Below are positions 4,345 through 14,395 of a stretch of 20,183 bases of DNA, in pieces (within the stretch, counting starts at the first letter, position 1; the number at the start of each line of letters is the position of its first letter). A model generated the notes under the pieces. The model did no database searches. It had not been told where the DNA came from and saw only the letters and a program-made list of their open reading frames with translations. This stretch comes from a virus: positions 1 to 20,183 of the IMG/VR virus record IMGVR_UViG_3300033141_005384. One strand, given 5' to 3'. A program made the position numbers and the translations under genes.

Positions 4345-7260
4345 TTATCCTCTTGCAATTTCCCTTAAATGAAGCTGATTAATTTCAACTGGACTTTTAA
4401 GACCTGCTACTCCCATCGGCATTCTTGCTTTTGGTCTAATTGTTTTAGCAAACAATCTTGCTTGGCTTATAGGAACAACTCTAGGAGCCGCTTTTTCTAT
4501 TCCAGAACCCATATTAGGAATCATTATTCTTTGTTTAATAGGTCTTACTCCAAAAGAAGAGGCCATTGCAATAGACCAAAAAATGTCTCCATGATGAGCT
4601 CTGTTCTTTTCTGCATCAAAAATAAATCTTCCAGAATCAGTAACTTTTCTTTTAATTGAATGTATTTGATTTTTAACATCCTTTAAATTTGGAATAGCGA
4701 TTAATTGATCTTCTAACCTAATTCTTGTATCAGAACATATTTCCTCTTTCCACTTATTATCAAAATGTATAGGTTCTACTCTCCAAGAATAATCCCCTAA
4801 TTCCTCAGCCATATCTTCGCCCATACCTCCGCTATCTATTTTCATTTTTAAATTAGGGAAAACATCTAAACAATTTTTAAGGTAGTTTTTTTGAAATCTG
4901 AATTTTTTATTACGGAAAGTCCTTAGATGTCTAATTATCTGAAGAGGATGTTTTCCTCTTTTTTCTTCAATAATTGAAAATTCTCCAGAATGCTTTTTTC
5001 TTCCAACATCATAACCACTATATAAATCTCCTTCAATTTTGCCATCCCTTATGGCTAATTCTAAATCTTCTATATTTTTATAAAATTCAAAATCAACTTT
5101 GGGATATTTTTCTTGTATTGGAAAAGTTAGTTTTTCAGAATATTCATCTTCTTCTAGAAACAAATTATCAATAACAACTTCATAAACACATGAATTAATA
5201 AGGTCAATAGGGAAAAAAGAAACAGATTCATCAATATGAAGAAGTTCATATTCTTGTTGAAATTGTTCTATGTCCATAGAAATAAAGATCCCTACAATTT
5301 TCTCAGAACCAAAAGTAACAACCCTTTCTTCTGTAGACATAAAAGAAGCTTTACGCCAAGCTTCTTTAAATTTTCCTCTTTTAACAAAATCCTTACAATG
5401 CCACCAAAAAATTCTATGAAAAGTATAAATTCTTTTATAAGAATCTACTGCCATGATATCATAATGAATTCCTTTTTTCCCAAGAGGAGAACTTCCAATG
5501 GTTAATGACCCTGTCCCTCTGGTGATAATAGGAACTGCTGCGACATAAATTTCATTTCCCCATGTATAATGAGCAGCTTCATCTAAATAAACATCTACAT
5601 TCCCACCTTTCCCTCGAGGTTCTCTTTGGGCATGAGAAATAATCCTTGTTCTAGATTTCATTCTTCCAGCTTTATCTTCAAATTCTAAAGAATGTTTATT
5701 GTCAACAACTATTTTTTTCTTTACAGAAAGAGGAAGAGATTCAAAAAGCCCTTTTGCATAAATTACTTTTTCATTAGCTTCTTCTTGATTAATGGAAATA
5801 AAAATAGAGGTATGATGAGTTTGTAGATGAGATCTAGCAGTTGATCTTCCTGCATAAATATAACTAAATCCTGTATTATGAACAACTAATCCTTCAAAAA
5901 TAAAATTTTTATTTTTCTTTGTAGATATATCAAAACAAAGTTTATCTCCACATTCTTCAGACCACTTAAAAACCCTATTCTTTTCTCTCAGATGGTGCTG
6001 ATAATGCCTTAGTGGAATTTCTTGCTTTGTTGCAATACCAATTTCATTATAAAACTTTGAGATTGATCCTCTATAAGCAATTATAACTTTCCAAAAATCT
6101 CTAACAGTTCCATATTTAGGATGAGGGCCTCCCTTATATTCATTTATTTTTGATTCTATTCCAAAATTCCATAAAAGTTGCTGGATTTGATAAGCTAATT
6201 TTCTATTAGAAGTTCCAAACCCAACTCCTTCAACCATGTCTCTTGAACGACTATACCATCCATCACAACAAAACATTCGATTAAGGAGGAGACGAACACT
6301 TTTTCTATTCCATAAAAAAACTTCTTCTGGAAGAAATTTAACTTCTTTTCTTTTTCCTCTAAAGCCCCATTTTTCTAAAATATGATGGACTTTATTTTTT
6401 TTACAAGTTCCATATTTAGCATGAGGAAAAGTTTCTAATCCATTTTCTTTTGGAACTGTTCGAAATATTAAAGATGGATCAAAAATCTTAACAGCTTTAA
6501 TGAAATCCTTAATTAGCCGTTTATCATTATTTGTAAATTTCGGCTGAATTATAGTGCTTCCATCTGTTATGAAATATGCAAGAAGAAGAATTTCAGATTT
6601 TGGAGCTTTTATTTTTCCAAACTTACCTGAACAATATTTTAATTCATCCCCTTTTTCTAAATCTTTATTTTTCTTCCAAGAATTATCTTCTAACAAAAAA
6701 GGATGTTTTTTTCCAGCTTCTACTCTGTTACAGGATCTGGTAAAAAATCTTTGACATTTTTTTATTCCAGATTCCCAAACTTCAACAACTTCATCAATTT
6801 CAATTCTTCCTTTCTTAATATTATAGCTATAAACCAAATCACCTGATTTTAGATTTTCAATTTCAATAGGACCAATAGGGGTAGAAACCATACTTCCTTT
6901 AGGAAGACATTGTCTCGCTTTGTCTATATGGATAAAATAACTTCTATCATCAAGATATTTTATTTGATAACCATATAAACTAGAAGGATTTCCAAAAACA
7001 TCTTCTGTAAACCCTTCTAAGAACCCAGATTCCGTAGCAAGCCATTTCTGGATTTCTTCTTCAGCTTCCTTCTCATATTTTTTAACTATTGATTTAGGAG
7101 ATTTCTTTGACTTTAAAAGATCTTTAACTTTCAGAAGGGCCTTTTTCTTCTTTATTTTTTTTAATTCAGTTAAGCTCGATTTTTTCTTCTTTTTCTTTTT
7201 AGAAGATTCAAAAATTTCATCAAGCTCTTCCAGAAGATCTTTTTTCTTTATCTTCGACAC
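4345..7260 (-). CDS. terL: Terminase large subunit (TerL) interrupted by an intein
   Basis: The precursor is 971 residues; removing the intein (residues 118-462) leaves a 626-residue TerL, the ATP-driven DNA-packaging motor and nuclease. The start is GTG 7258-7260 behind AGGAG. Residues 1-70 are Lys-rich. The ATP-binding loop is formed only after splicing: KARQ (114-117) joined to TGFS (463-466). The Walker B motif is VDVYLDEA (555-562, Asp560 and Glu561), and TIGSSP (587-592) is a likely coupling motif. The nuclease domain shows three acidic sites: GYDVGR (Asp751), KIDSGG (Asp809) and HHGDIF (Asp892). It overlaps the small subunit gene by 41 bp. Confidence 0.93.
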   Translation of the reverse strand: MSKIKKKDLLEELDEIFESSKKKKKKKSSLTELKKIKKKKALLKVKDLLKSKKSPKSIVKKYEKEAEEEIQKWLATESGFLEGFTEDVFGNPSSLYGYQIKYLDDRSYFIHIDKARQCLPKGSMVSTPIGPIEIENLKSGDLVYSYNIKKGRIEIDEVVEVWESGIKKCQRFFTRSCNRVEAGKKHPFLLEDNSWKKNKDLEKGDELKYCSGKFGKIKAPKSEILLLAYFITDGSTIIQPKFTNNDKRLIKDFIKAVKIFDPSLIFRTVPKENGLETFPHAKYGTCKKNKVHHILEKWGFRGKRKEVKFLPEEVFLWNRKSVRLLLNRMFCCDGWYSRSRDMVEGVGFGTSNRKLAYQIQQLLWNFGIESKINEYKGGPHPKYGTVRDFWKVIIAYRGSISKFYNEIGIATKQEIPLRHYQHHLREKNRVFKWSEECGDKLCFDISTKKNKNFIFEGLVVHNTGFSYIYAGRSTARSHLQTHHTSIFISINQEEANEKVIYAKGLFESLPLSVKKKIVVDNKHSLEFEDKAGRMKSRTRIISHAQREPRGKGGNVDVYLDEAAHYTWGNEIYVAAVPIITRGTGSLTIGSSPLGKKGIHYDIMAVDSYKRIYTFHRIFWWHCKDFVKRGKFKEAWRKASFMSTEERVVTFGSEKIVGIFISMDIEQFQQEYELLHIDESVSFFPIDLINSCVYEVVIDNLFLEEDEYSEKLTFPIQEKYPKVDFEFYKNIEDLELAIRDGKIEGDLYSGYDVGRKKHSGEFSIIEEKRGKHPLQIIRHLRTFRNKKFRFQKNYLKNCLDVFPNLKMKIDSGGMGEDMAEELGDYSWRVEPIHFDNKWKEEICSDTRIRLEDQLIAIPNLKDVKNQIHSIKRKVTDSGRFIFDAEKNRAHHGDIFWSIAMASSFGVRPIKQRIMIPNMGSGIEKAAPRVVPISQARLFAKTIRPKARMPMGVAGLKSPVEINQLHLREIARG
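5875..6909 (-). mobile_element. Intein with LAGLIDADG homing endonuclease in the TerL ATP-binding loop
   Basis: The 345-residue intein runs from Cys118 to Asn462 of the precursor. Splicing block A begins CLPKGSMVSTPIGPIEIENL. Block B is GKKHPFLL with His186, but Gly sits where most inteins have the Thr of TxxH. Two LAGLIDADG-type motifs are present: LAYFITDGS (227-235, Asp233) and LLNRMFCCDG (325-334, Asp333). The C-terminal block reads LCFDISTKKNKNFIFEG and ends LVVHN, with the penultimate His and terminal Asn needed for cleavage. The +1 extein residue is Thr463. Insertion between Gln117 and Thr463 splits the Walker A motif, a typical intein position because mutation there cannot easily remove the element. 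Host protein activity depends on correct splicing. Confidence 0.93.
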
Positions 7261-11260: not shown

Positions 11261-11415
11261 AAGGGGGGATTAATTTAAGACTTAAATTTTTCAGGACTTA
11301 ATTTTCTCAATTCGGAATTGAAAAATCAGAATCATTTAAAAATTCTTCTTCGAATTGAGAAAATCAGGACTTAATTTTTTCGACTCCGAACTGAGAAGGA
11401 ACCTCCGCCCCCCTT
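11261..11415. repeat. Nested inverted and direct repeats
   Basis: An outer pair AAGGGGGG (11261-11268) and CCCCCCTT (11408-11415) encloses an inner perfect 14-bp inverted repeat, ATTTTCTCAATTCG (11301-11314) with 11351-11364. It also encloses two direct copies of TCAGGACTTAATTTT (11291-11305 and 11364-11378) and a small palindrome CAATTCGGAATTG (11308-11320). The arrangement could fold as one 155-nt RNA or be a protein-binding site. Confidence 0.7.
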
Positions 11416-11450
11416 TTTAAAAAAAATTATTTTGTGCATATACTTGTTTT

Positions 11451-11564
11451 GCTTGTTACTACTTGCAAGTAGTTTTATACTTGTCATTACTTGTTACTAC
11501 TTGCAAGTAGTTTTATACTTGTCATTACTTATTATTACTTGCAAGTAGTTTTATACTTGTTAAT
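11451..11564. repeat. Three 38-bp iterons each carrying a palindrome
   Basis: Copies lie at 11451-11488, 11489-11526 and 11527-11564, directly adjoining. Copies 1 and 2 differ only at their first base; copy 3 has a few changes. Each centres on ACTACTTGCAAGTAGT, a perfect 16-bp palindrome in copies 1 (11458-11473) and 2 (11496-11511) and with one change in copy 3 (11534-11549). There are no spacers, so it is not CRISPR. Directly repeated palindromes next to a small gene are typical of plasmid or phage origins and partition or repressor sites. Confidence 0.9.
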
Positions 11565-11757
11565 CAAAGTTTAATTGTTTATTTGGATTAATATAAAAGT
11601 CAATACTGTTATTATCATTACTATTAAAACTTGCTTGTTTAAAATTGCCTTGAAAATAACTATCATTACCGATGTCAATATTTGACATTGTGTGTTGTTC
11701 AATAAACAAATCAAAGTCTTTCAAAGCTTGTAAAGCTTTATCTATTGCTTTTTCCAT
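11560..11757 (-). CDS. Small hypothetical protein next to iterons
   Basis: The 65-residue protein starts at ATG 11755-11757 behind AAAGGA. It has a short helical start (MEKAIDKALQALKDFDLFI) and an Asn- and Ser-rich, probably disordered tail. It is not recognised. Its stop overlaps the last iteron. An inverted repeat and a TATAAT lie upstream, suggesting its own regulated promoter. Together with the 181-residue gene it forms a module set apart from the phage genes. Confidence 0.6.
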   Translation of the reverse strand: MEKAIDKALQALKDFDLFIEQHTMSNIDIGNDSYFQGNFKQASFNSNDNNSIDFYINPNKQLNFD

Positions 11758-11775
11758 TATTTATCCTTTTATATT

Positions 11776-11860
11776 AGCTTACAAGCGTACTTTGAGCCAT
11801 TAAATATTAACCAAATAAATTAAACATAGATTAAATTATAAGGCTATACGCTTGCAAGCT
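11776..11860 (-). promoter_or_regulatory. Candidate promoter flanked by inverted-repeat arms
   Basis: AGCTTACAAGCGTA (11776-11789) and TACGCTTGCAAGCT (11847-11860) are inverted copies matching at 13 of 14 positions. Between them, read on the minus strand, is a TATAAT (plus 11835-11840) that could serve the 65-residue gene; no good -35 is seen. The right arm contains CTTGCAAG, the core of the iteron palindrome, so one protein may bind both and repress the gene. This is inference. Confidence 0.4.
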
Positions 11861-11868
11861 TGAAAAGA

Positions 11869-12414
11869 TTATTTGATTAATTCATTGCATACAGGAACAA
11901 GCTTTTTCAAACTATCATCGGTAACGGCAACGAGGCAATATGTTTTATGCGCTGTAAAAACAAGCTTTGCCTTGTTAAGCTTTTCAACTATTGACGGAAA
12001 AGTGTAATGCCTATTTGCATTAATACAAATCATATTAGCTTTATGGTAAAAATAAGCAATGGTTGCTTTAAAGCTTTTACTTGCCTTATCACTTAAGCCA
12101 TAACAAGGGAAAGTGTTACGATATGCAAAGATATGTTTTTCAGTATTTGGCTTTAAAGCTTTAAAAAGCTTTTTGATGTTATCCGACATATTACTGATAC
12201 TATCAATATTGATATTGCTTTTTGTATTACTTTTGAAAGTCAAGGTTTTACCATTTAAAACCATATTACAATATTCAAGCTCCCCTTTTTTACTATTTGG
12301 GAAAAACATGGTATTGAAAAGCACTTTGTTATTGCCATCAATGGCCTTATTAGCTATCACAGCACGCTTTTTTTGCTTAGGGGTGACTTTACCCTTATTT
12401 TTTGCTTTAGTCAT
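11869..12414 (-). CDS. Hypothetical 181-residue protein with foreign codon use
   Basis: ATG 12412-12414 behind AAAGGA is preferred. The frame stays open up to 12600, but the only start there is a TTG without a ribosome site. The protein begins with a basic stretch (MTKAKNKGKVTPKQKKRA) and contains KKLFKALKPNTEKHIFAYRN and FTAHKTYCLVAVTDDSLKKL; no family is recognised. Codon use differs from the phage genes: all five Gly codons are GGT, GGC or GGG (none GGA), Arg is mostly CGT, and AAGCTT recurs. The phage genes favour GGA and AGA. It could be a replication or control protein of a plasmid-like module given the nearby iterons, but that rests on context alone. Confidence 0.62.
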   Translation of the reverse strand: MTKAKNKGKVTPKQKKRAVIANKAIDGNNKVLFNTMFFPNSKKGELEYCNMVLNGKTLTFKSNTKSNINIDSISNMSDNIKKLFKALKPNTEKHIFAYRNTFPCYGLSDKASKSFKATIAYFYHKANMICINANRHYTFPSIVEKLNKAKLVFTAHKTYCLVAVTDDSLKKLVPVCNELIK

Positions 12415-12563
12415 TGTGTTAGTCCTTTTATGCTCTATATCAGCTATTGAAAAAGTAATAAATAAGATTGATATGGCAAGCTTTAAAAGCTTTTTAACAG
12501 GCCATTGCTTTGCTTTGCTGATTATGCAAGGCACAAGGTACATATATTGACTATTTATTTGTA

Positions 12564-12589
12564 TTTTATACTTGTCATTCAAGCTTGAA
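12564..12589. repeat. Partial fourth iteron copy plus palindrome
   Basis: TTTTATACTTGTCATT (12564-12579) is identical to 16 bp of the 38-bp iteron. It runs into TTCAAGCTTGAA (12578-12589), a perfect 12-bp palindrome. It lies upstream of the 181-residue gene, between its promoter and start, so iteron-like sequence brackets both genes of the module. Confidence 0.75.
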
Positions 12590-12640
12590 CAAGTTAACAA
12601 GGTATGTGACTAAATAAAACATAATTAAGCATTAACTAAC

Positions 12641-12669
12641 ATACTACTAAATAATATTAAACTTGTCAA
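12641..12669 (-). promoter_or_regulatory. Sigma70-like promoter for the 181-residue gene
   Basis: On the minus strand TTGACA (plus 12664-12669) is followed after exactly 17 bp by TAGTAT (plus 12641-12646). The -35 is perfect and the -10 matches at four of six positions. The start codon is about 220 nt downstream, leaving a long leader that contains the partial iteron and 12-bp palindrome, which suggests control in the leader. Confidence 0.6.
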
Positions 12670-12881
12670 GGTTTTTTTTGCTTTTTTTTACTTTTATTTT
12701 ACTTTTATTTTTATATGCTTTTATATAGTTTTTGGCATATTGCTTGCATACACTTGTTAAGCACAAAAAAGTTTATATAAACTTAAAATGTTAGGCAAGC
12801 CTAAAAAAGCTTTTATAAAGCAAATTTTTTTTACTTAAAAAGCCACTATATATAATTATATATAATTAAGTAGCTTAACAA

Positions 12882-12913
12882 GTTATACTTAATTATATAT
12901 AATTAAGTATAAC
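12882..12913. repeat. Perfect 32-bp palindrome
   Basis: The sequence beginning GTTATACTTAATTATA equals its own reverse complement across all 32 positions with no loop. A related partial copy (AATTATATATAATTAAG) precedes it. Such a sequence can extrude a cruciform or bind a dimeric protein; without GC pairs it is a poor terminator. It lies near the right end of the module with foreign codon use. Confidence 0.95.
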
Positions 12914-12962
12914 GACTTTAAGCTCTAAGATCTTACCCTTCTTTCGCCAAGACCTCCTATAT

Positions 12963-13626: not shown

Positions 13627-14279
13627 TTTAATATCCCTTCCTGCTGCTTGCCGCTGCGATGATCTCATATCGACAGTTACCCTCGATAACCCTCGATTTA
13701 ACTATCGAACAGATGATCTCAGATCTTTCCCAAGCAACATAAAGCTGCTCAGCTCTCTAATTCTAAGATCTCAAATCATTTAATTTAATTAGATGATTCA
13801 TGTTACGTTCGGAATCTAATAATTACGAGATCAAGATTTCCTTCTAAAAAAAGCTATTAAAAAGAATTTAATCTAATAGGCCTCTGGATAACAGTTTGCT
13901 TAACATTAATGCTTGTGTGCTTAAATTAACAAGCTATTGCTCTGGAAGGGCTATTAGGCCGCTTCTGGATTAAAATAATATATAATTATTGCTGCTATAA
14001 AATACCTATATATTATAAGCCTATCTTCTCTAATTTTAAAATAGAGTCCTACGGTAACTTCGTTTTTCAGGAAACTTTACCATCTTACTATATCCAAGGG
14101 GGTATACAGTAATAACCAATTCTTAAATAACTATCTGTAATTACTACATTTATTTTTTTGCCCCTTAAAATCTATAATAAGACAGATCTCTAATAAACTC
14201 GTGGATCTCAGATCATCTTTTTATTGGCTCGATTCACTCCGCATATATTGTGATGAACAGACAGACAGAAGGGAGGCCT
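13627..14279. other. Non-coding stretch upstream of P1
   Basis: No gene is seen. It holds repeated TCGATA and TATCGA pairs (13683-13708), GATC clusters (13660-13770 and 14185-14215), TTACGTTCGG (13803-13812), which recurs upstream of P3, and an imperfect direct repeat of AATAGGCC-CTCTGGATAA type (about 13870-13893 and 13949-13973). The role could be regulatory or origin-like; nothing decisive is visible. Confidence 0.5.
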
Positions 14280-14395
14280 CCTTTTTCTTTACTTTTTATT
14301 GTAGTTATTGTATTATTTAAATCTTATTAAGATTTTTCCTTTTTCTTTACTTTTTATTGTAATTATTACATTATTTAAATCTTATTAAGATTTTC
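14280..14395. repeat. 58-bp tandem duplication
   Basis: Two adjoining 58-bp copies (14280-14337 and 14338-14395) differ at about four positions. Each starts CCTTTTTCTTTACTTTTTAT and ends with the near palindrome AAATCTTATTAAGATTT, whose 8-bp arms flank a single base. The copies are old enough to have diverged slightly. Confidence 0.88.

Follow-up and report, generated by a model that had tools for sequence, protein, structure and literature searches.

The dinucleotide GA, together with its complement TC, is largely missing from about 1.5 kb of a tailed-phage genome, in genes and intergenic DNA alike, and islands with the same signature lie at a like position in related phages. We put at roughly 0.4 the probability that this is an indigenous, conserved control or origin locus that is kept GA/TC-free so as to be exempt from a DNA mark or a DNA-acting factor directed at GA/TC.

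One dinucleotide is depleted across genes and intergenic DNA

The DNA analysed here (the window) is a linear IMG/VR record of 20,183 bp from a tailed phage, with genes for a portal protein (phrog_113), the large and small terminase subunits, and a 5'-3' exonuclease (FEN), as well as numerous small ORFs. The island, its two genes and its flank are located as follows:

11405-12913, no strand: GA/TC-poor island, 67 GA+TC vs 203 expected; rho(GA) 0.45, outside about 1.2-1.3
11560-11757, minus strand: acidic, unrecognised 65-residue ORF; 10 D+E, 5 K+R
11869-12414, minus strand: gene for a basic 181-residue protein; 33 K+R, 11 D+E; two paralogues in the phage pair G002/G005, at 26-30% identity
12914-14413, no strand: GATC-rich flank, largely non-coding; 11.3 GATC per kb vs 4.4 in the whole window

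The depletion covers the genes and the intergenic DNA from about 11405 to 12913 and stops at sharp edges, beyond which rho(GA) is about 1.3. The remainder of the record predicts 203 +/- 11 GA+TC for the island (z -12.7). While G is followed by A in 42% and by C in 14% of cases outside the island, these values are 16% and 36% inside. Non-coding parts of the window island are at 19% of the phage GA/TC rate and coding parts at 47%. Plus-strand counts in non-coding DNA (11 GA and 9 TC in the window; 11 GA and 12 TC in L026, the island locus of a related phage) showed that both dinucleotides are about equally depleted, and the constraint thus bears on duplex DNA, or on each of the two strands. Such symmetry speaks for double-stranded DNA and against a single RNA strand.

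An earlier note on this DNA had taken the codons of the 181-residue gene as foreign. Its counts are literally true (none of five Gly codons is GGA, two of three Arg codons are CGT), although five Gly and three Arg codons are too few to mean anything alone; foreign codon use does not hold, since GA/TC is purged from the non-coding DNA as well. The island-wide loss of one dinucleotide is a DNA-level signature, and the codon oddity is part of it. What looks like foreign codon use can therefore be a DNA-level rule and no sign of transfer.

As the note had stated, both genes are unrecognised: neither the 181-residue nor the 65-residue ORF has a significant Pfam, PHROG or PADLOC family, and the profile check that it had proposed for Rep, winged-helix and partition families recognised none in the two proteins. 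PADLOC and Pfam revealed no toxin, antitoxin or defence protein for P0001 (the 181-residue protein), P0002, P0008 and P0009, and the combination of a basic gene with a small acidic one is no more than a resemblance to toxin-antitoxin modules. Peptide-pattern scans, which miss distant relatives, found none of the 181-residue gene in IMG/VR beyond the pair G002/G005 and none in 84,980 prokaryote genomes. Likewise, no plasmid (72,556) or phage (50,697) record matched the window island DNA or its main protein. AlphaFold models were unusable (pLDDT 48.8 and 41.8), three sequences being too few for fold prediction.

The island recurs at the same site in related phages

Relatives were found by a portal search (G002/G005, about 61% protein identity) and by a terminase-profile scan (G006, with its island in L026). 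G002 and G005 (IMG/VR 3300031669 and 3300031539) come from two different metagenomes, and G002 (26,583 bp) is 99.97% identical to G005 (122,493 bp) over 14,252 bp, island junctions included, with 2 mismatches and 2 gaps. The agreement of these separate assemblies excludes, for the best copy of the island, the chimeric assembly that the earlier note had envisaged. G001 is identical to the remainder of G002 and adjoins G005, giving a total of about 136.8 kb.

The G002/G005 island spans 1,603 bp with 8 GA+TC against 222 +/- 12 expected, and includes 300-bp stretches with zero. The third phage, G006 (3300021511; 88,140 bp; terminase 72% identical to that of G002), carries an island of 1,582 bp with 78 GA+TC against 227 +/- 12 expected. 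Markov models built on the rest of each record gave z -12.7 for the window, -17.5 for G005 and -12.2 for L026; mononucleotide shuffles, used as a second null, gave -8.6, -16.4 and -9.0, respectively. Relative to the expected rate, GA/TC in non-coding DNA is at 0.19, 0.05 and 0.19 across the three islands, and non-coding DNA is hit hardest in two of the three.

Each island contains one basic gene of 181-204 residues and one or two small ORFs; in L026, these are a basic 184-residue gene and an acidic 56-residue ORF that escapes the purge (z -1.3). Repeats lie at the FEN-side end of all three islands, direct in the window and in L026 (an array of 27-bp repeats) and inverted in G002. The site is also alike, flanked by an array of small genes on one side and by the convergent FEN/terminase side on the other, with the L026 order being small genes, island, P0005-type gene, FEN, small terminase and large terminase. 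Profile comparison detected no homology between the L026 184-residue protein and the other island proteins, indicating that signature, layout and position are better conserved than sequence. Our comparison rests on three independent phages, two of them with a partial purge, and the island was present in all three (window included) whose contigs cover the site. In other relatives, including those reached via the P0005 family, the contigs stop before the site or differ in gene order. A fourth, more distant phage, G007 (124 kb, terminase 51% identical), has the lowest GA window of its contig upstream of FEN and terminase, where the dip is mild (rho 0.55, 500 bp).

The sharp compositional edges and the repeats at the ends could suggest that a plasmid or another mobile element was acquired and brought a foreign signature with it, as the earlier note had proposed among other origins. 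We consider such an acquisition very improbable, because like islands (in signature, gene size, layout and position) occupy the same place in two other phages of the family, presence/absence variation was not seen among phages covering the site, and no match was obtained in the plasmid and annotated phage records or in the peptide-pattern scan of prokaryote genomes. We also know of no cellular genome with a rho(GA) near 0.05. What stands of the proposal is that this locus forms a discrete module, one that bears repeats, has an unusual signature and may have an origin or control function.

Two features of the neighbouring DNA are recorded here as separate observations. In the large-terminase ORF of the window (4345-7260, minus strand; 971 aa), about 330 aa are inserted near the N-terminal third; the insertion matches intein-bearing helicase PHROGs, is absent from the G002, L026 and L006 terminases, and is a probable intein judging from these matches. 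About 0.7 kb from the L026 island, a GA-rich repeat array (L026:2718-3163; rho about 2.2) can be read as a Lys-Ser-rich ORF of 134 residues and its complement.

The purge overrides coding and is poorly accounted for by chance or mutation

The pair G002/G005 encodes two paralogues of the 181-residue gene that are 67% identical, gene 1 (P0006, 186 aa) and gene 2 (P0007, 204 aa). Gene 2 lies inside the island, whereas gene 1 lies ~300-400 bp outside it and has near-normal GA/TC and normal acidic codons. Among its 204 residues, the gene 2 protein has no Glu and just 2 Asp, and its serine codons are AGY only, with no TCN. Since 73 of the 134 codons that differ between the genes are synonymous, gene 2 looks like a real, constrained gene. 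These tandem paralogues (L009:10313-10873 and 11475-12089), one near-normal and the other GA/TC-free, form a natural pair for studying expression timing and exemption.

Synonymous recoding with the phage's own codon usage yielded GA/TC z-scores of -9.3 for P0007 (3 vs 51), -5.4 for P0008 of L026 and -2.9 for P0001 of the window, compared to -0.3 to +3.3 for neighbouring phage genes; the coding DNA of the window and L026 islands retains roughly half of the GA/TC expected there. While a constraint on DNA usually yields to coding, in the extreme case here the protein has yielded to the DNA.

Moderate GA dips do occur elsewhere, as two of 25 unrelated viral loci reached a rho(GA) of 0.50 and 0.52 over 1.5 kb. 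The medians of these two contigs are 0.66 and 0.86, however, and none of the 25 showed a comparable contrast, whereas the island values are 0.45, 0.47 and 0.04 against contig medians of 1.24-1.27. Each island is the sole GA/TC-poor one in the 122 kb of G005, the 88 kb of G006 and the window, and outside the islands 1-kb windows over about 478 kb of contigs never fell below rho(GA) 0.66. With z-scores of -12 to -17 against each record, the strongest purge in non-coding DNA in two of three islands, and two independent assemblies in agreement, the probability that chance, protein composition or an assembly artefact explains the loss is practically negligible. Stretches poor in CC/GG and CG in L003 and G004 were set aside as low-complexity serine-rich repeat genes (sequence read in L003). 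Long serine-rich low-complexity repeat genes that make CC/GG-free stretches (L003:13301-14412, L005:3646-4739, L041:12406-13515) are common to these phages.

A local mutational process could also have erased TC/GA, for example a TC-context cytosine deaminase or similar activity acting only at the island, such as on DNA kept single-stranded there. TC is the target context of DddA-type and some APOBEC deaminases, and where gene 2 departs from gene 1 at a GA/TC site of the latter (42 sites), the commonest single class is GA to AA (12 sites). The other 30 sites differ otherwise (8 GC, 6 GT, 3 GG, 4 TA, 4 CA, others), with the direction of change unpolarised. Moreover, rho(AA/TT) is hardly increased (1.20 vs 1.15), while GC rises to 2.6 in two islands, and the near-identity of the G002 and G005 assemblies indicates that no active hypermutation is seen. 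A mutational origin thus appears improbable, and we infer that the dinucleotide was lost through selection.

Repeats, promoter-like elements and a possible origin

In addition to the genes, the window island carries several repeats and promoter-like elements:

11449-11562, no strand: three 38-bp head-to-tail repeats at the FEN-side end of the island, each centred on CTTGCAAG in a 14-16-bp palindrome
11851-11858, no strand: fourth CTTGCAAG, in the gap between the genes, upstream of the 65-residue ORF
12564-12589, no strand: partial repeat copy upstream of the 181-residue gene, 26 nt, 81%
12641-12669, minus strand: promoter-like TTGACA-17-TAGTAT for the 181-residue gene; its -35 box has the sole GA/TC of 12610-12912
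12729-12752, plus strand: TTTTTGGCATATTGCTTGCATACA element, sigma-54 -24/-12-like with GG-N10-GC; the window's only TGGCAY-N5-TTGC, pointing away from the gene
12839-12919, no strand: AT-rich inverted repeat with 34-nt arms at the island's upstream edge

The earlier note had described three 38-bp iterons that each hold a 16-bp palindrome, a partial fourth copy and a recurrence of one motif in the promoter region of the first gene. The repeats are indeed present, copies 2 and 3 being 97% and 89% identical to copy 1 (3.2 copies by TRF). The palindrome ACTACTTGCAAGTAGT is perfect in repeats 1 and 2 only (11458, 11496), with 14 bp kept in repeat 3. The partial copy and the recurrence were confirmed: the core occurs at 11462, 11500, 11538 and 11851 and nowhere else in the 20-kb window, the last being the sole copy outside the repeats.

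Tandem repeats with palindromic cores near a gene for a basic protein, an AT-rich inverted repeat and GATC-rich DNA nearby are also found in iteron plasmid replicons of the P1, F and R6K type. The locus could be a phage replication origin or plasmid-like replicon, its composition being a by-product of origin structure (melting or initiator sites). Besides the three 38-bp repeats and the partial copy upstream of the gene, this reading draws on the repeats at the same end in L026, the inverted repeat there in G002, and the flank on the upstream side of the island gene, which is GATC-rich in all three phages (11-13 per kb vs about 4), with an excess well above the local-trinucleotide prediction in the window only. 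Unlike in iteron replicons, the repeats lie downstream of the gene, no Rep-like family was significantly matched in Pfam, PHROGs, a PDB sequence search or plasmid records, and a locus-wide dinucleotide purge, which is no feature of these replicons, extends through the whole coding sequence and is left unexplained by an origin. In addition, melting needs low GC, yet the G002 island has a GC content of 0.34 vs 0.38 for the genome; GC skew tracks gene direction and marks no origin; and by sequence inspection, DnaB-like, primase-like and PolIII-like genes of the phage itself lie elsewhere. An origin or replicon with the composition as its by-product is therefore unlikely. Within the long non-coding stretch upstream of the window island, two 58-bp tandem repeats were also noted (14279-14394).

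Promoter-like sequences were seen by inspection upstream of the island genes of the relatives as well (L026, TTGACA-17-TATCTT; G002, TTGGCA-17-TATATA). A single TC, placed in the -35 box of the window, is what would be left by a purge that gives way just where a site is required. Furthermore, a TTTTTGGCATW-N4-TTGCA-like element, which these genomes rarely contain elsewhere, is present in each island. TGGCAY-N5-TTGC sites occur at 12733 in the window and at 119547 and 120567 in G005 (both of that phage's sites), all inside islands, while the L026 island has two near-copies with GTGCA replacing TTGCA, and G006 has one site elsewhere. The sole 11-mer common to the three islands is TATGCCAAAAA, with 0.26 expected.

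The TGGCAT-N5-TTGCA element, almost confined to the islands, resembles sigma-54 (RpoN) promoters with its GG-N10-GC spacing, although the L026 fit is imperfect (GTGCA) and the promoter role is putative. Its orientation varies, being toward the gene in G002/G005 and the opposite in the window and L026, so that the element may serve for binding rather than as a promoter. Scanning IMG/VR for TTTTTGGCATW-N4-TTGCAT returned 31 contigs, among which a GA-free island occurred in the known pair only, and an Rfam search gave no match. An unrelated phage contig shows a GA dip (L076:8200-8330; 0.49 over 500 bp) around the sigma-54-like site TTGGCACGATAATTGCAT.

Exemption from a GA/TC-reading activity as the favoured explanation

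The strand symmetry, the strongest loss in non-coding DNA where the purge is incomplete, the override of amino acids, the sharp edges and the recurrence in diverged phages are best explained by selection to escape a GA/TC reader. We propose that a locus of about 1.5 kb, which would belong to the phage family and not be a recent acquisition, has been selected at the DNA level to lose GA/TC on both strands. Some mark or factor in the infection cycle would read GA/TC, either a context-limited phage DNA modification or a binding, silencing or cleaving activity, and the island would have to stay unmarked, so that the purge would amount to exemption. From the gene for a basic protein and the repeats, we infer a control region or replication origin: a promoter region with a gene for a basic, probably nucleic-acid-binding protein, whose likely binding sites are predicted to be the FEN-side repeats. 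The locus could then act as a regulatory switch, possibly as a replication origin. It may well be, at somewhat less than even odds, that this is a new kind of phage locus, a control/origin island that lacks one dinucleotide, down to the encoded amino acids, because a phage or host DNA mark or DNA-acting system recognises it. Counter to exemption, the purge is incomplete in the window and L026, and P0006, the paralogue that lies outside the island, functions there or is at least retained. A full-text search of the open literature matched no island of this kind.

The GA/TC reader could also be the ~180-residue basic protein itself, as a silencer, nicking or coating factor whose own locus is purged to stay active; the G002 paralogue outside the island would then serve an earlier stage. 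Consistent with such self-exemption, the purge tracks the basic gene and its surroundings and nothing else in these genomes, the proteins are strongly basic (33, 17 and 28 K+R vs 11, 2 and 10 D+E), and two paralogues of very different GA content lie side by side in G002. However, the few acidic residues follow in part from the purge, which makes charge alone weak evidence of binding, no fold or family was found for the protein, and the L026 protein is not recognisably homologous. We regard self-exemption as unlikely.

For exemption from a mark or factor in general, the island-wide purge would be the footprint of an activity that reads GA/TC in double-stranded DNA, and would make that activity searchable; dinucleotide-free islands in other genomes could lead to DNA marks or defence systems that are still hidden. 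Phage DNA is also known to lose short motifs selectively in restriction-site and PAM depletion. In contrast, such depletion is genome-wide and concerns longer motifs, whereas here a single dinucleotide is lost from one 1.5-kb island in a genome otherwise rich in GA/TC.

Candidate sources of a GA/TC-directed mark

Known DNA marks can have dinucleotide contexts, a precedent by analogy for dinucleotide reading. DpdA in phage CAjan is reported to act at GA and GGC sites (PMC8306585), and hypermodified thymine occurs at TG/TC in phages M6, ViI and phiW-14 (PMC6449724). The resemblance lies in the dinucleotide that such enzymes read, and an island without it would stay unmodified; unlike in those phages, no DpdA was found here and no 5hmdU kinase candidate was seen. 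To our knowledge, no unmodified island of such a kind is known in the CAjan, M6, ViI and phiW-14 phages.

No enzyme with known GA/TC specificity was found. For DpdA and 7-deazaguanine, PF01702 (TGT/DpdA) had no match at E<=1 in G005 and G001, together ~137 kb. A weak 6PF2K match considered for a 5hmdU kinase is an SbcD-like protein by PHROG, and P-loop motif matches resemble proteins of the DnaC, DnaB and MoxR types or are unplaced ORFs; these searches by P-loop motif and by the families scanned, which cover only part of the genes, gave no evident 5hmdU kinase candidate. G005 also encodes a NADAR-domain protein (L020:2635-3060; E 6.5e-30) that was not found in G006, G007 or the window. NADAR reverses DarT1-type guanosine ADP-ribosylation, and no consensus motif is reported for DarT1 substrates (PMC11543638); given this and the occurrence of NADAR in G005 only, NADAR/DarT1 was set aside as the GA/TC agent. 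A thymidylate-synthase-family gene (L018:2758-3984), also present in G006 and G007, has a CMP 5-hydroxymethylase as its best PDB match and is a possible nucleotide hydroxymethylase, which for a GA/TC mark is at most a hint.
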